From the NCBI GenBank assembly GCA_029776255.1, contig JAKOTN010000134.1, forward strand, positions 124,001-188,000: a DNA stretch of 64,000 nucleotides, in the 5' to 3' direction. The position numbers and the translations under genes are program-made. Below are positions 33,526 to 40,571 of the stretch, in pieces. This stretch comes from Pseudomonadota bacterium (GTDB lineage: Bacteria; Pseudomonadota; Gammaproteobacteria; Burkholderiales; Rhodocyclaceae). Within the stretch, counting starts at the first letter, position 1, and each line of letters begins with the position of its first letter. Below the pieces are notes generated by a model. It was given only the letters and a program-made list of their open reading frames with translations. It had not been told where the DNA came from and did no database searches.

Positions 33526-35004
33526 TCAGCTGAGTTCCCAAGGCACCGGGTGGTCGAGGAACTCGACCAGAGCGCCGTCAAGTTGGTCGAGCATCGCCGC
33601 GTTGCGCCCCGCCAGCCAGCCGTGTATCAGATCGTTCGGCTCGCCGGGCATGGCTTCGGCGATCAGCTGATCGGCAACGGCGATGTCGTTCATGCGCCCG
33701 AGCAGATCGAGCAGCCTGGCCGCGCTCTGGTGGTAACGCTGGATGCGCCGCGCGGGCAATAGCGGCGCGAAGAATTCAAGCGCGTAGCGCAGCCGCTTCA
33801 GGGCCACCCGCAAGGCATGCCGCGCTTCGGGGTTGGTGTCCCGGGTTTCCGTGGCTAGGGCGGCGACGCGTTTGGCGCGCTTGTTCAGGCAGCGCGGCGC
33901 GAAAACCGGCATTGGCGGCTTTTTGCGTTCGACCAGCGCCAGGGTCTCGGCGGTGAATTCAAGCAGCAGGCGGGAGTAATCCGCCGCGCCTATCGCCGTC
34001 TTCGCTGCCTTGCGGCACCGAGCGAGCTGCGTTTCCGCCGCCTTGGCCAGTCGCGGCAGCGCGGGGTGATCGGGGAACGCCTTGACGACGGGGGGCAACA
34101 CTTCAGTGACGAATACATCCCAATTACGGGTATCGCCAAGCCCATTGGCGGCCGTGCGCCAGCGCGGGTCGAAATTGTCGACGTAATCCGCTGGCAGCAG
34201 CGGTCGCCAGACGCGGATGGCCGAACGCAGGCGGCGCATGGCGACGCGCGCTTGATGGATGAATTCCGGCGCGTCGCTTTCACGTACTCCGCGCTCGTTG
34301 CCTTGCAGTTGGCCGAGGCAGGCAAAGACGGTGGTCCGAAAAGCGGCGATGCAGCCCATGCCCGGTTCCAGCGGCACGGCGGCGGCCTTGGTCGGTGTCA
34401 ACGCCGCACCGCTCGCCAGGCGATAGCCGCGTTCCGCCTTGCTGCCGCCTTCCGGATGCAGCGGCAGGTTGGCCTGAAAAGCGAGTGCGGCGATAAACAG
34501 ATCGGCGACGCGGCCTTCGAGGAGTTCCAGTTCCACCTCGCAAATGGTTTCGTGGCGTTTGCCGGCGGTGACTTTGCCGCGGTCGAGCGCCAGCTCGATG
34601 CGTGTGCCGTCCTGTGGCGTCAGCAACCACAGGTCACGGGTGAATTCGGTGGTGAATATCGGAGTCAGGTCGGGTTTGGCCGCTTCGAGAGCGCGGCGAA
34701 TCTTCGGGTTATCGACATGCGAGAAATCGAATTCGCCGGGTTGCGCGGCGATTTCCCATTCGTTGCGTTGCGCCAGTCCGCCCGGCGACGGGGCATCGCA
34801 TTTGACGGTCAGCAGCCACTCCGCGCCTTTTTGGCGATAGCGTGCCGCGATGCGTTTGCTTTGCAGGCGCAGATCGGGCGTGTCGTAATAGGTGTTGATC
34901 AGTTTCAGTTGTTGCGGCGCGCAGCCGGCCAGCAAGGGATGTGCCGGCAGTCGTCGGGCGGTGCTGGCGGAAAGACCCAGCTTGATTTCGGTTTCCAATG
35001 CCAT
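33526..35004 (-). CDS. CYTH and CHAD domain protein (inorganic triphosphatase-like)
   Basis: Cytoplasmic protein of 492 residues. The N-terminal CYTH domain starts METEIKL-like (ETEIKLGL, the ExExK motif), with basic residues in IAARYRQKG and acidic ones in EVELELLEG, forming a triphosphate tunnel. From about residue 215 a helical CHAD domain, rich in conserved His and Arg (IHQARVAMRRLRSAIRVW and ARHALRVALKRLRYALEFF), binds polyphosphate. E. coli YgiF has the same layout and hydrolyses inorganic triphosphate. An AGAGGAG ribosome site precedes the ATG. Confidence 0.93.
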   Translation of the reverse strand: MALETEIKLGLSASTARRLPAHPLLAGCAPQQLKLINTYYDTPDLRLQSKRIAARYRQKGAEWLLTVKCDAPSPGGLAQRNEWEIAAQPGEFDFSHVDNPKIRRALEAAKPDLTPIFTTEFTRDLWLLTPQDGTRIELALDRGKVTAGKRHETICEVELELLEGRVADLFIAALAFQANLPLHPEGGSKAERGYRLASGAALTPTKAAAVPLEPGMGCIAAFRTTVFACLGQLQGNERGVRESDAPEFIHQARVAMRRLRSAIRVWRPLLPADYVDNFDPRWRTAANGLGDTRNWDVFVTEVLPPVVKAFPDHPALPRLAKAAETQLARCRKAAKTAIGAADYSRLLLEFTAETLALVERKKPPMPVFAPRCLNKRAKRVAALATETRDTNPEARHALRVALKRLRYALEFFAPLLPARRIQRYHQSAARLLDLLGRMNDIAVADQLIAEAMPGEPNDLIHGWLAGRNAAMLDQLDGALVEFLDHPVPWELS

Positions 35005-35050: not shown

Positions 35051-35743
35051 TCATCGATCGTAGGTGCGCAATTGGTCTACGTCTGGAATATTGATCCGTC
35101 GACCTTCGATGACGATCAATCCTTTTGCGGCGAACTCGTGCAGGATGCGCGAGAAGTGTTCCTGGGTCAGATTCAGGCGCGAGGCGATGATGCCCTTATT
35201 GGTCGGCAAGGTGACGGAAAGCGATTTCGCTCCATCTTCCAGTGTGTCGCGCAGGAGGTAGCCGATGATGCGTTGGCGACCCGAGTGCAAGGAATAGGAT
35301 TCCACGTCGACAATCAGGTGATGCAAACGCATGGCCAGTCCGGCGATCATCTTGCGGCCGAGTTTAGGATCCTTGTCGAGCTCGTCGATAATGGCGGCTT
35401 TGGAAATATGTAGTAACAGGGAGTCGGTGAGCGCTTGGGCTTAAACCATGAACGGTTTGTCCATGAACATCACCGCCTCGCCGAAGGTCTGTCCTTGTCC
35501 AAGGATGTCGACCACTTTCTCACCGCCTTGCGGCGAGGTGAAAGCCAGTTTCACCTGCCCATAAACCAGCAGATGAAAGCCGGTGGGCGTATCCCCTTTA
35601 TGAAACAGGATGTCGCCGCGCGACGCCGTGACTTCGCGCGTGCCACGCGCCAGCCGCGAAATTTCGTCGGACTCCAGTTCATTGAATAGCGGCACGCGGG
35701 CGAGCAACGCCTCAACGTTGATGCCGTGTTTGAAGGCATGCAT
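35051..35743 (-). pseudogene. Crp/Fnr-family regulator interrupted by an in-frame stop
   Basis: The two halves lie in one frame, separated only by TAA at 35441-35443. The N-terminal half (about 100 residues from ATG 35743) is a cyclic-nucleotide-binding-like domain: VEALLARVPLFNELESDEIS, DILFHKGDTPTGFHLLVYGQ and GQTFGEAVMF. After the stop the sequence continues AQALTDSLLLHISKAAIIDE, then the dimerisation helix and a C-terminal winged helix (NKGIIASRLNLTQEHFSRIL). Family members usually have Tyr where the TAA stands, so a single TAT- or TAC-to-TAA change explains it. No cysteine cluster of true FNR is present; it resembles Dnr-type regulators. A sequencing error cannot be excluded. Confidence 0.85.
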
Positions 35744-36666
35744 GGCGTGTTGTCGGCAAGAGCCATCCGGCGGGAGGTGGCGATGCACGAATACTCGCAC
35801 TTGTGTTCGCCATGAGCAAGCGACGTGCCGCAATCCACTGCCGATTTTCGAGTTCTTCAAGGAGGGCTGTTCGACGGATTGCCGATACGTTGCCGTCGCG
35901 AGAGGTGGCCGTGTCCACCAGAGGGTGCCTGAAATTTCTGGCCGGTTGTCTTTTGAGCGATTCGTGCGTGCTCAGGTGGCTTCCGGTTGGGGTGTAACGT
36001 TCCGCGCCGCCCACCAAGTGGGTGTATGAATTTAATTGTTTGTTTTAATTTGAAAAAAATGTATATCTCCGGGCTGTTTGTTTTGACCGGTGCATTTTGT
36101 TACACCCCTTTCGGGATCGAACGTTGCCACGGCTAATTTAGTTTTCTGATTTATAGGAGAATTATTTATTTCAATCTGGGCACGGATTGTGCATCGGACG
36201 ACCCGGCGATGACGGCTGCTCAACCGCTCGTGCAGCGACCCGAGTCGTCACGGCAATGTTCCTGGCGGGTTATGTCCCGTGGTCGATGGGACCAGGCCGT
36301 TGTCGCGGCGGGTGGCGGGTCAACGCCTTGGAATGCTGACCGTTAAAAGCGCTTCCGATTGTCCATTGGCGGGTTTTCGACAATGAGATGCCACTGCTCT
36401 GAGTTGTCGCGCTTGCCGGTTGGTTTTCCTTTTGCCGATGACGAGCCCTGTCTGGGTGCTGCCGTGTTGTTGTTATTACTCCTGTTACTCCGAGCGTTGC
36501 GAAAAGTGGTGCTCGCGCCGTTTTTCAGGCGATGGTTTTTCCAGCGTCGCGAAAGCACCTTTCAGGTCGCTGTTTACGCTTTGAACCGATGTGGACTCGC
36601 CGGCCTTCCAAGTTCGGTGGCTGTTATTGATGAGGCGGGGGTGTTCATTTGAAAGAAAGAGACGAA
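35744..36666. other. Gene-poor, partly AT-rich region of about 920 bases
   Basis: No convincing gene is found. A distinctly AT-rich block at 36028-36170 interrupts the GC-rich background. GGGTGTA occurs at 35992 and 36019 and in inverse as TACACCC at 36101. A small frame at 36359-36652 contains a run of leucines but has no ribosome site. The AT-rich block may hold promoters for the DUF47-like gene or the broken regulator. Confidence 0.4.
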
Positions 36667-37371
36667 ATGGCTGGCAATCAGGAATTTACTCCGCGGTCGA
36701 TTCAAAATGACCTCGATAGCTATTTGGACGGGATCGCGGGCGCGACGGGAATTTTCCGGGCGGCGGTCGATAACTATCTGGTGGCAGGGCCTGACGGCGG
36801 ATGTTGGCAGCAGGCCAAACAGATCGCCGAACACATCCGCGCTCTTGATGATTTGCAGCAAAAACTTGAGGTGGGCGCGCGCGCGCAATGGATCGACGGC
36901 GCGTTGGTGTCGGACATGGCGGATCCGCTGACCCGGGTTGGTCGCATGCTCAAGGAAATGAAACGCCAAATCACCGGATTTGCCATTGAGTCCGGTTTTT
37001 CGAGCCCTGGCCGACGTGTGCCCGCGCATTTGCTCGCCGACATGCAAGCCCTGGCCGAGGAGGTTTGCGCGGCGGTCTACGCATTGATCGCCCGTTACCG
37101 TCCGTCGCTGGCCTGGTGGGGCGATGACTCGACGGAGGCGCCGTTGTCGCGTGGTGTCGAGTGGTATGAAAAGCAGGCCGACAGGCGTTCGATGCGGCTG
37201 CTGAAAACGATTTTCGCCGATGACACGATGGATGTCGAAACCAAGCTGCCGCTGGCGCAACTCGTCGAGGAACTCGATCGTGTCGCCGACCATGCGGTGG
37301 CCATCGATAGAGAAGTTCGATGCGCCGGCAAGGTCGGCGTGCACGCACCGGGCGGTAGAGCGTCCCGTTGA
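36667..37371 (+). CDS. PhoU/DUF47-like protein
   Basis: Helical cytoplasmic protein of 234 residues resembling the DUF47 (TIGR00153) branch of the PhoU superfamily. The best clue is the end of the last helix, AQLVEELDRVADHAVAIDRE, which matches the metal-binding ExxDRxADH pattern of PhoU proteins. The N-terminal half is less typical. DUF47 proteins normally accompany Pit phosphate transporters and regulate them. Here the next gene is a SulP anion transporter, so it may modulate that instead (inference). ATG 36667 has GAAAGAGA upstream; a TTG six codons earlier is the alternative. Confidence 0.6.
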   Translation: MAGNQEFTPRSIQNDLDSYLDGIAGATGIFRAAVDNYLVAGPDGGCWQQAKQIAEHIRALDDLQQKLEVGARAQWIDGALVSDMADPLTRVGRMLKEMKRQITGFAIESGFSSPGRRVPAHLLADMQALAEEVCAAVYALIARYRPSLAWWGDDSTEAPLSRGVEWYEKQADRRSMRLLKTIFADDTMDVETKLPLAQLVEELDRVADHAVAIDREVRCAGKVGVHAPGGRASR

Positions 37372-37657
37372 TCGCGGTTTTTTCGAAACCAGCCGCGGTG
37401 TGTCGGATGGGCGATGTCGGTCGCGAACTTGGCGTCTTTTCCCAGTTTTCTAATTTGTCCGCCATGCCAGTGGCGGGCAGTGCCGCTCGGCTGTAAAAAA
37501 AGCCGATTGTGGTAGCATCGCACGCGGTTCACGGTCTTGTTGCCGGAATCGCGTGGCTTGGGTTGCGTCGCTTTGGCTTTGGCAGACCTTGGTTTGGAGG
37601 GGGCCGCGGCAACGCATTTTGCATCGGACACTGGATGAAGGGTCTAAGCCTGTGGAA

Positions 37658-39865
37658 ATGGAAATAAAACTTAAAAATGACAAAATCATGGGCGACTTTT
37701 GGGGCGGTCTGGCCGCCATGCTGGTCGCCTTACCGTCCGCGATTGCCTTTGGCGTGACCATTTACGCGTCCATCGGTCCCGCTTACGCCGGTCTGGGAGC
37801 ACTGGCAGGGATTCTTGGGGCAACCGCCCTTGGTCTGGTTTCACCCGCTCTGGGCGGTACCGACCGGTTGATCACCGCGCCTTGCGCGCCGGCCGCGGCG
37901 GTGCTTTCCGCTTTCGCCATCGAACTCGTGCAGCACGGCGTGGCGCCGGCATCGATCGTTTTGATGCTGACCGCGGTGGGCCTGGTTTCCGGGTTGGTGC
38001 AGTTGATGCTCGGCTTCATGGGTATCGGCAGCTTGATCAAGTACATTCCTTTTCCGGTGGTTAGCGGCTACCTTACCGGCGTCGGCCTGATCATTATCGG
38101 CAGTCAGATCCCGAAGTTCCTTGGCGTGCCGAGTGGGACCACTTGGTGGCGGGCACTGATCGCGCCGGATTTGTGGGTCTGGCAAAGCATGGTGATCGGC
38201 GGCGTGACGGCGGCGGTGATGGTGCTCGCTCCCATGGTCACCCGCTTGGTCCCGGCGGCGATTCTTGGCCTGTTGGCAGGTGTGGCGACCTATTTCGGGC
38301 TGGCGATGAGCGACGAATCGCTGCTGGTGATCGAAGGAAACAAGTTGATCATCGGTCCGCTCGGTGGGTCGGCGTCCAGCATGCTGGCGGCGATCACCGG
38401 CCGGTGGGCGGAAATCGGCGATCTCCGCTTGCGGGATATCGCCAGTTTGCTGGGAACCGCGTTCACGCTGGCGGTCTTGCTGTCGATCGATACCTTGAAA
38501 ACGGCCGTCGTTCTCGACGCGCTGACGCGTAGCCGCCATGACTCGAACCGCGAACTCGTCGCGCAGGGCATGGGTAACGTCGCCTCGGCCTGTGCCGGCG
38601 GCATGCCCGGCGCCGGGCAGATGGGGGCGACTCTCGTCAATCTGGCCAGCGGTGGTCAGACCCGGGTTTCGGGCGTTGTCGAAGGTGTCTTGGCCCTGGT
38701 GGCCTTCCTGGCTCTCGGGTCGTTCATCGCCTGGATTCCTGTGGGTGCCTTGGCGGGTATTCTGATGGTTGTCGGCGTGCGCATGATCGACCGTCACAGC
38801 TTGCATCTGCTGGAGTCGTCCTGGACGCTGCTGGATTTCACGGTGATCGTGGTGGTGGTCGGCGTGGCCGTCGGATACAGCCTGATCGCGGCGTCGGGTG
38901 TCGGTGTCGCGCTGTCGATGCTGCTGTTCATTCGCGAACAACTGAGCAGCACGGTTATCCGTCGCAAGGTCGAAGGCGGTAGCCGTTTCTCGAAGCGGGT
39001 GCGCTTGAATCAGGATATGAAGATTCTGGAGCAGCACGGCGGTCAGACCATCATTCTCGAGTTGCAGGGCAGCCTGTTCTTCGGCACCAAGGACCAGCTC
39101 TACTCGGCGCTCGAACCGGAACTCAGCAAGCGCAAATATATCGTGCTCGATATGCGGCGCGTCCAGTCGGTTGACGTCACGGCCGTTCATTTGCTGAGCC
39201 AGATCAGGGATTCGCTGGTTGAGCGGAACGCGATGCTGATCTTCACCGGGTTGTGGATGACGTTGCCGAACGGTCGGAATATCGCGGAGTTCTTCGACCA
39301 GATGGAACTCACTCGCATGACCGAGCAAGTGAAGGTTTTCCGGGAACTCGATGACGCCGTCGAATGGATCGAAGACCAGATTCTCGGCGATAGCATCGCC
39401 GAAACCGCGCAGTTGCAGGCGCTGGAATTTTTTGAACTCGATCTCTTCAAGGATCACAAGGAAGAAACGCTCATCGATCTCGAGGAGTGCGTGGAGCGCC
39501 GCTCGGTCGCCAAGGGCGAGAAAGTCTACTCCTACGGCGATCCGGGCAACGAGCTTTATGTGATCCGCAAGGGCGCGGTACGCGTGACCTTGCCGAGCAA
39601 CGGCGAATCCGAAGGTCATCATGTCCTGACTTACGGTCGCGGCGACTTTTTCGGCGGCATGGCATTCTTGTCGGAAATGACGCGTTTGAACGACGCCACC
39701 GCGCTTGAGGACACCGAACTCTTTGTGTTGGGCCGCGAACAATTTGAAAAGATACGGGAAGAGCACAAGCGGCTCGCCTGCCATCTTGTCGAAGCCGTGG
39801 CCAAGGTGCTGGCAATGCGTTTGCGCTATGCCGACAAGGAACTGATGGCCTTGCAGGACGAATAA
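37658..39865 (+). CDS. SulP anion transporter with STAS and cyclic-nucleotide-binding domains
   Basis: Inner-membrane transporter of about 735 residues. The membrane part (about 11-430) begins GDFWGGLAAMLVALPSAIAF, the SulP signature, and has roughly 12-14 helices. A STAS domain follows (about 450-590; KYIVLDMRRVQSVDVTAVHL). A C-terminal cNMP-binding-like domain (about 600-735) contains GEKVYSYGDPGNELYVIRKG and RGDFFGGMAFLSEMTR. Regulation by a nucleotide or similar ligand is thus likely. Starts at 37658 or 37688 are both possible; an open frame begins at 37553. Neighbours are a PhoU/DUF47-like gene upstream and uspA downstream. Confidence 0.92.
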   Translation: MEIKLKNDKIMGDFWGGLAAMLVALPSAIAFGVTIYASIGPAYAGLGALAGILGATALGLVSPALGGTDRLITAPCAPAAAVLSAFAIELVQHGVAPASIVLMLTAVGLVSGLVQLMLGFMGIGSLIKYIPFPVVSGYLTGVGLIIIGSQIPKFLGVPSGTTWWRALIAPDLWVWQSMVIGGVTAAVMVLAPMVTRLVPAAILGLLAGVATYFGLAMSDESLLVIEGNKLIIGPLGGSASSMLAAITGRWAEIGDLRLRDIASLLGTAFTLAVLLSIDTLKTAVVLDALTRSRHDSNRELVAQGMGNVASACAGGMPGAGQMGATLVNLASGGQTRVSGVVEGVLALVAFLALGSFIAWIPVGALAGILMVVGVRMIDRHSLHLLESSWTLLDFTVIVVVVGVAVGYSLIAASGVGVALSMLLFIREQLSSTVIRRKVEGGSRFSKRVRLNQDMKILEQHGGQTIILELQGSLFFGTKDQLYSALEPELSKRKYIVLDMRRVQSVDVTAVHLLSQIRDSLVERNAMLIFTGLWMTLPNGRNIAEFFDQMELTRMTEQVKVFRELDDAVEWIEDQILGDSIAETAQLQALEFFELDLFKDHKEETLIDLEECVERRSVAKGEKVYSYGDPGNELYVIRKGAVRVTLPSNGESEGHHVLTYGRGDFFGGMAFLSEMTRLNDATALEDTELFVLGREQFEKIREEHKRLACHLVEAVAKVLAMRLRYADKELMALQDE

Positions 39866-39879
39866 GTTCGAGTCCGTGG

Positions 39880-39906
39880 CCGGGGGCATCGTCGGGTGCC
39901 CCCCGG
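39880..39906 (+). terminator. Hairpin after the SulP gene
   Basis: CCGGGGGCA at 39880-39888 pairs with TGCCCCCCGG at 39897-39906 with one bulged C. A run of five T residues starts only about ten bases further on, so termination is possible but not typical. Confidence 0.35.
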
Positions 39907-40064
39907 CGGATGGATCTTTTTGCGATGCTCGTAAAAAACAAGCTCATCAAGATCTGCGTTGCGGACGGCATTGCAAGGCAAATTCTTATCTGGCGCAGCG
40001 TTTTGCGCCGGGCTGTGACTATCTCCGGGGCATTGGGGGACTATAACGAGTGAGGGGCGATACG

Positions 40065-40571
40065 ATGTTTCAGCATATCCTGCTGCCGACCGATGGTAGC
40101 CAGTTGTCGCGTGAGACTGCCGAACGGGCGGTTGTATTTGCACGGAAAAATAATTCCCGGGTGACGGCGATGTACGCGAAGCCGGCGGGTCATCTGGAAG
40201 ACGACGGCGATTTGGTGGAGCCCGCCGTACTTGAGCGCATGCTTTCCAATGCCGATGTGAAAGCCCGGGAGTATCTCGGGTTCATCAAAAAATTGTGTAA
40301 GGATGCCGGCGTCGAGTGCCACGCGGTCGCGGTGGTGAACGACACGCCGTGGGAGGCGATCATCGATGTCGCCGAGGAGTGCGATTGCGATCTCATTTTC
40401 ATGTCCAAGCACGGCCGGGGCGGACTGTCTTCGTTGTTGTTGGGCAGTGAAACGTACCGTGTGCTGACCCACTCCAGCATTCCCGTCCTGGTGTATCGTC
40501 CGCGGGAATTGGACGAAAAGCGTCGCCGCGCAAAAGAGAAAAAGCGGCAAAAACAAAAGAAAAAGGATTGA
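40065..40571 (+). CDS. Universal stress protein UspA family
   Basis: Cytoplasmic nucleotide-binding protein of 168 residues. It starts FQHILLPTDGSQLSRETAER and has the ATP-binding pattern G-x2-G-x9-GS in HGRGGLSSLLLGSETYRVL, followed by SSIPVLVYRP. The last 20 residues are an unusual highly basic tail (Lys, Arg and Gln). The ATG has a GAGGGG ribosome site. Such proteins respond to stress and energy depletion; location after a nucleotide-gated transporter is suggestive only. Confidence 0.92.
   Translation: MFQHILLPTDGSQLSRETAERAVVFARKNNSRVTAMYAKPAGHLEDDGDLVEPAVLERMLSNADVKAREYLGFIKKLCKDAGVECHAVAVVNDTPWEAIIDVAEECDCDLIFMSKHGRGGLSSLLLGSETYRVLTHSSIPVLVYRPRELDEKRRRAKEKKRQKQKKKD

Follow-up and report, generated by a model that had tools for sequence, protein, structure and literature searches.

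The window analysed here, a stretch of 64,000 nucleotides (assembly GCA_029776255.1, contig JAKOTN010000134.1, positions 124,001 to 188,000; contig C163 of a 3.79-Mb genome), derives from a member of the Rhodocyclaceae whose genus we infer to be Candidatus Accumulibacter. It carries a gene, designated here P0001, directly upstream of a gene (P0002) encoding a SulP transporter with a STAS domain and a C-terminal domain resembling those that bind cyclic nucleotide monophosphates (cNMP). As judged from sequence comparison and structure prediction, P0001 is a divergent homologue of the DUF47/PhoU_div family that has lost its N-terminal acidic site, has kept the C-terminal one, is under purifying selection and is fixed next to SulP within the genus. 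These findings are best explained, with a probability of roughly 0.57, by P0001 being a PitR-type (DUF47/PhoU-superfamily) accessory protein that was re-paired with the adjacent SulP-STAS-cNMP carrier and that would bind its cytosolic side, where it may throttle or report flux.

Family membership and conserved residues of P0001

The initial annotation, made from the sequence alone, had placed P0001 in the PhoU/DUF47 group. As a single sequence, the protein stays below every PhoU/DUF47 cut-off, with no match to PF01865 (PhoU_div) at E≤5, an E-value of 0.19 against the PhoU TIGRFAM and 15.1 bits (E 0.03; cut-off 23.5 bits) for residues 168-213 against Pfam PhoU, but PF01865 matches do occur in the family to which it belongs. 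Among 21 P0001 orthologues, PhoU_div was matched by 19 at E≤5 (best 1.7e-6) and PhoU by 13; of two orthologues scored singly against PF01865 (cut-off 24.4), that of locus L015 reached 28.0 bits and that of L021 remained below at 21.4 bits. NCBIfam models yielded weak matches only for these 21 proteins (TIGR00153 in four, best 0.0037; PhoU in four, best 0.02). Profile comparison using hhalign aligned the P0001 family with DUF47b (probability 98.9, E 2.7e-17, 199 columns), a distant homologue that scores 70.1 bits against PF01865 and adjoins a 495-aa Pit carrier (PHO4 domain). Direct comparison with two further families, DUF47a (E 0.15) and PhoU-like A (E 0.1), gave no match, so that the DUF47 link passes via DUF47b. 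P0001 also clusters with DUF47b in a tree (support 100/99), for which a long-branch warning applies and in which no classical PhoU was included.

The AlphaFold2 model of P0001 (predicted local distance difference test score 83.7, predicted template modelling score 0.82) consists of six long helices, in which two three-helix PhoU-fold repeats are present. VIA-align ranked DUF47 structures first (2olt, Z 21.0; 2iiu, Z 20.9; 3l39, Z 18.9; root mean square deviation 2.9-3.2 over 205-209 residues), followed by classical PhoU (Z 15.8-17.2) and then by plant ALMT channels (Z ≤15.0). Foldseek, with modest E-values, listed PhoU 4q25 (1.4e-4) ahead of DUF47 2iiu (4.6e-4), and sequence searches of the PDB with P0001 and with its family profile returned nothing meaningful. 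The hhalign result, the Pfam matches of the orthologues, the structural match and the tree grouping jointly argue for a DUF47 ancestry of P0001.

The C-terminal PhoU-type motif reported previously, although weak when scored alone, proved to be real. In the alignment of 21 orthologues, from which the L007 protein was omitted as identical to that of L006, 34 columns are invariant, including all four C-terminal acids (E168, D172, D204 and D208; 21/21). The ExxxD motif is described as the metal site of PhoU (PMC5686610). The N-terminal ligands of P0001 have been lost: in a ligand table of 16 P0001-family rows against six DUF47b rows, the E57 position is occupied by I, M, V or L and the D92 position is non-acidic in 16/16 rows each. 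The D61 position remains acidic in all 16, and E211 is found in 14, with Val in the window's P0001.

Median ratios of non-synonymous to synonymous substitution rates (dN/dS), obtained by a simple counting method with many divergent pairs, were 0.30 for P0001, 0.39 for PhoU-like A, 0.20 for DUF47a, 0.12 for DUF47b and 0.15 for SulP, indicative of purifying selection on P0001 and of faster evolution than that of DUF47b and SulP. Orthologues of P0001 are 44-65% identical to the window copy in the alignment, compared with 77-88% for the adjacent SulPs. At G004:C1:16249-16740 (L030), a decayed copy of P0001 is interrupted by five in-frame stops and remains flanked by PhoU-like A and SulP.

When 60 related genomes were searched besides its own, P0001 was matched in 26 of the 27 from the same genus, as a close orthologue (48-68% identity) in 20 and solely as a distant homologue (27-29%) in six. 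No match was obtained in nine genomes from other genera of the family, and a single weak one in 24 genomes that represent other families of the order. Across 399 genomes of the order, the P0001 family was found in its own genome plus one partial weak match only, and a search of a genome-contig collection with P0001 alone yielded no relative.

Pairing with SulP and the surrounding locus

The 22 intact P0001 copies compared here derive from 21 genomes (two copies in G012); the decayed L030 and the weak L028 were left out, and a copy in Dechloromonas sp. SSD3 was counted apart. In 22/22, P0001 immediately precedes SulP in the same orientation, which exceeds chance, although the copies are related by descent; a universal stress protein (Usp) gene comes directly after SulP in 20 and PhoU-like A directly in front of P0001 in 18. 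CHAD is encoded nearby in 15/22 loci and Pit within 9 kb in 15/22, both counts being lower bounds since less than 5 kb precedes P0001 in five loci. The usual order in the genus is CHASE-PAS histidine kinase, sigma-54 response regulator, Pit, DUF47, CYTH-CHAD, PhoU-like A, P0001, SulP and Usp, with a DNA glycosylase, AccA and TilS (named by reading the sequences) downstream. CHAD domains bind polyphosphate (PMC6537752), and by its gene content the wider locus is a phosphate/polyphosphate neighbourhood. In the window's genome, P0001 stands with SulP, and the Pit-DUF47-regulator-kinase part is located on another contig (C89, L113), where both Pit genes were found.

A comparable run (kinase, regulator, CHAD, PhoU-like A, P0001, SulP and Usp) was identified in Dechloromonas sp. 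SSD3 (L143), with no Pit or DUF47 within 9 kb and five PF01865 matches elsewhere in that genome. The SSD3 SulP nests within Accumulibacter (support 99, in a quick tree with Shimodaira-Hasegawa-like approximate likelihood ratio support only), and SSD3 AccA is 75% like that of the window's genome, as in G030 from another genus, compared with 78-82% for five other Accumulibacter genomes. With SulP inside Accumulibacter and AccA at the level of another genus, the block was apparently transferred into SSD3.

Six genomes of the genus lack P0001 (G001, G008, G010, G011, G014 and G022, of which G011 is a fragmented assembly). In these, a Pit of the 346-aa type was not found beside the kinase/regulator pair, and each of the six carries the 495-aa Pit. 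Here SulP directly follows the kinase/regulator pair (G008 and G011) or an orphan Pit-type DUF47 with the regulator split over two frames (G014 and G022). In G010 it comes after a DUF47b-Pit unit, and in G001 it stands apart. At L098 (9638-10435) and in its relatives, a ~266-aa gene with a DDE_5 transposase-like domain was observed between the 495-aa Pit and SulP.

Named loci represent the best 80 of 502 obtained from a contig scan with a SulP alignment; as L091-L129 and L131-L157/L196 largely duplicate one another's contigs under different names, 90 distinct sequences underlie the SulP counts. Outside the genus, SulP-STAS-cNMP transporters with the same domain order and 55-60% identity (L158-L206) were examined at 48 loci, and none had a DUF47 directly beside SulP (genus-built profiles, at least 30 bits). 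The sole outside locus with a DUF47 at this threshold, L163, has a Pit gene between a convergent DUF47 and SulP. A Pfam scan of the 89 nearest flanking open reading frames (131 picked) from these 48 loci showed neither PhoU nor DUF47 within the 25 most frequent of 124 families. The proposed adjacency therefore holds within the genus and in one Dechloromonas strain but not at the 48 other SulP loci, and the pairing looks lineage-specific rather than a general habit of SulP. Eight of the 89 flanking frames match NMT1_3 binding proteins and two match the polyphosphate kinase PPK2.

PhoU-like A (18 members, loci L091-L129) gave no PhoU/DUF47 Pfam match; it aligns with DUF47a by hhalign (E 8.6e-9), groups with it in the tree (88/89), and its predicted model resembles PhoU and DUF47 3l39 (Z 19.1-21.6) and DUF47 2olt/2iiu (Z ~17). 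It forms a mirror image of P0001, in that the N-terminal ligands are kept (E63 position acidic in 18/18, D67 in 15/18, D98 in 17/18) and conserved C-terminal ligands are absent; the table compared 18 rows with nine of DUF47a, two L112 rows being left out there and included in the DUF47a dN/dS. Since the C-terminal half of DUF47a is already divergent, its Pfam match spanning residues 25-137 only, the loss of the C-terminal site may have started there. A remnant of PhoU-like A was sought in the window and none was found, the best tblastn hit (E 0.035) falling inside the Usp gene. More broadly, 27 of 28 Accumulibacter genomes carry three to seven PF01865 matches (E≤0.01) and G016 carries one, and nine genomes from other genera of the family carry zero to two.

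The SulP transporter and coordinates in the window

All three genes lie where the initial annotation had placed them (Table 1), with open reading frames located and domains assigned by Pfam. The transporter combines the PF00916 membrane domain (153.9 bits, cut-off 23.2) with STAS (45.3, cut-off 22.6) and cNMP_binding (68.1, cut-off 27.5) domains, and the third gene matches Usp (PF00582) at 102.4 bits (cut-off 24), in agreement with its designation as UspA.

Among solved structures, the membrane domain is closest to 6ki1 (E 4.6e-38), which was deposited under the title 'Low affinity sulfate transporter' and which we take to be BicA, followed by 5iof (4.6e-20) and 5da0 (7.4e-20). Residues D277 and T281 of SulP align with 6ki1 residues at positions that presumably have a role in BicA. 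BicA (207.6 bits, cut-off 880) is also the best NCBIfam match, ahead of the C4-dicarboxylate transporter DauA (195 bits, cut-off 614); both share the SLC26 membrane domain with the window's SulP, which nevertheless falls far below their curated cut-offs, and it likewise stays below that of TIGR00815 sulP (167.3 bits, cut-off 380.45).

The cassette of the cNMP domain reads FFGGM in the window's SulP, compared with FFGEM in most outgroup SulPs. The Glu, presumably a functional residue of the phosphate-binding cassette, is replaced by Gly in 40/40 distinct Accumulibacter-type SulPs and kept in 47/50 distinct others; Arg675 is retained in 36/40 of the former. The idea that the transporter takes two regulatory inputs, previously put forward on the basis of its two regulatory domains, is weakened by this substitution. 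As Gly also occurs in SulP copies without P0001, the cassette change is independent of P0001. Second SulP copies (~75% identity) were observed beside AccA without P0001 (L116 16730-19042; L119 1672-4104).

On the minus strand in front of the locus, a Crp/Fnr-type regulator gene at 35051-35860 (Pfam cNMP_binding 35444-35860, HTH_Crp_2 35054-35350) has its frame broken by a single in-frame stop, and is either a pseudogene or an assembly error.

Table 1. Positions in the window of P0001, the SulP transporter, their functional elements and conserved neighbours
Feature	Position	Strand	Source
P0001, divergent DUF47/PhoU_div-type protein, 234 aa, two three-helix repeats predicted	36667..37371	+	
E168-x3-D172, ExxxD motif of the C-terminal repeat of P0001, family-invariant	37168..37182	+	Alignment
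D204-x3-D208, other half of the C-terminal acidic site of P0001, family-invariant	37276..37290	+	Alignment
P0002, SulP (SLC26) transporter, STAS and C-terminal cNMP-binding-like domain, 735 aa	37658..39865	+	ORF (open reading frame), Pfam
SulP start codon	ATG 37658; alternative GTG 37652	+	
Sulfate_transp (PF00916) membrane domain, P0002 residues 10-398	37688..38854	+	Pfam
STAS domain (PF01740), P0002 residues 459-531	39035..39253	+	Pfam
cNMP_binding (PF00027), P0002 residues 614-702, altered phosphate-binding cassette	39500..39766	+	Pfam
Gly666 codon of P0002, replacing the cassette Glu of cNMP domains	39656..39658	+	
UspA-type universal stress protein, 168 aa	40065..40571	+	Pfam
CYTH-CHAD protein (polyphosphate-binding type), conserved neighbour, orientation inverted in window	33526..35004	-	

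Interpretation and alternative explanations

Three PhoU clades have been described, each with one importer family (PhoU-Pst, PitR-Pit and the NptA domain), and PitA is present in 97.8% of PitR-bearing genomes (PMC13170248). This one-family-per-clade pattern provides a precedent for a P0001-SulP partnership, and the pairing itself lies outside the three described there, in keeping with the earlier suggestion that it would be new. A PhoU/DUF47-SulP pairing was absent from the titles and abstract openings among the literature matches listed (subscription journals and preprints lying outside the coverage), and it is not mentioned in the available parts of PMC12604563, PMC12455942, PMC6856094 and PMC5840216. 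These comparisons suggest that such a regulator-SulP pairing is unusual.

Under the favoured interpretation, a Pit-partner DUF47 would have been duplicated to give rise to P0001, the direction of duplication being presumed, and the product re-assigned from Pit to the neighbouring SulP carrier. P0001 would then bind the cytosolic face of SulP, at the STAS or cNMP domain; its remaining acidic site may sense phosphate or metal state, and by throttling SulP or reporting its flux the protein could coordinate phosphate uptake and the cycling of polyphosphate with an anion path. Compared with PitR/DUF47 acting with PitA, P0001 has a similar predicted fold, a common ancestry and a transporter-linked gene; it differs in being followed by SulP rather than Pit (22/22), in having lost the N-terminal acidic site and in scoring below the Pfam cut-off. 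It is not classed here as PitR, since it lacks features of PitR (the N-terminal acidic site and a neighbouring pitA), and may still work like PitR. With PhoU of PstSCAB and the PhoU domain of NptA, P0001 shares the superfamily fold and a transporter link, but its transporter belongs to another family and its structural score is lower for PhoU than for DUF47.

Several observations weigh against this interpretation. A gap of 286 bp separates P0001 from SulP in the window, making co-transcription uncertain. Promoter and terminator scans gave one promoter-like site (0.9 in shuffles) and seven terminator-like sites (5.2 in shuffles), none between P0001 and SulP on the plus strand. The 22 copies share a common ancestry and do not represent 22 independent events. 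No intact P0001 lies beside 18 of the 40 distinct Accumulibacter-type SulPs, so SulP needs no P0001. SulP columns separating P0001-bearing from P0001-less copies numbered six, all mild, with no convincing interface pattern. Finally, in the 15 loci with Pit within 9 kb, assigning a partner by neighbourhood is ambiguous.

This last point makes the main rival an explanation in which P0001, a former Pit regulator, still serves Pit or the kinase of the locus, its position next to SulP merely reflecting an old phosphate locus. The clustering of P0001 with a Pit-partner DUF47 fits such a role, as does the finding that Staphylococcus aureus PitR acts on a two-component system (PMC13170248). Conversely, P0001 accompanies SulP both in the window's genome and in SSD3, where no Pit lies within 9 kb, lacks the N-terminal ligands of Pit-type DUF47 proteins, and is without PhoU-like A in front in 4/22 loci (one of which, L114, has only 1,021 bp in front) compared with 0/22 without SulP behind. 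On balance, this explanation appears rather unlikely, though stronger than those that follow.

More doubtful is an extended version of the partnership, in which SulP was recruited to phosphate handling (of phosphate itself or an exchanged anion) and a pair of half-degenerate, separately derived DUF47 paralogues acts as one heteromeric regulator replacing the altered cyclic-nucleotide input, constituting a fourth PhoU-clade/transporter pairing. P0001 would supply the C-terminal acidic site and PhoU-like A the N-terminal one; the window's genome, with no adjacent PhoU-like A, would use P0001 alone.

That P0001 and PhoU-like A are functionless paralogues in decay is improbable: their fast divergence, their dN/dS medians above those of DUF47a and DUF47b and the L030 copy with its stops point that way, but the 34 columns invariant across 21 intact copies, including the entire C-terminal site, and dN/dS values well under 1, even by simple counting over many divergent pairs, oppose it. 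Least probable of all is the earlier proposal that bicarbonate flux is tied to energy status through cNMP and Usp inputs, for which the argument is the closeness of SulP to BicA-type carriers (6ki1, the best NCBIfam model and the D277 and T281 alignment), against the missed BicA cut-off, the loss of the cassette Glu and conserved neighbours identified as phosphate/polyphosphate, signalling and housekeeping genes.

In wastewater treatment, Accumulibacter is the driver of enhanced biological phosphorus removal, and the question of what turns a bacterium into a polyphosphate accumulator is still open (PMC12455942). Plant SPDT (SULTR-like phosphorus distribution transporter), which is not known to have a PhoU partner, reaches only E 1.4e-9 to the SulP membrane domain. 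It represents a SulP-family precedent for phosphate transport (PMC11811851). If the favoured interpretation is correct, a PhoU-superfamily regulator fixed to SulP would extend the repertoire of phosphate control by a transporter class and illustrate partner change by such regulators, with P0001-SulP providing a concrete gene pair for the cycle of anaerobic release and aerobic uptake.

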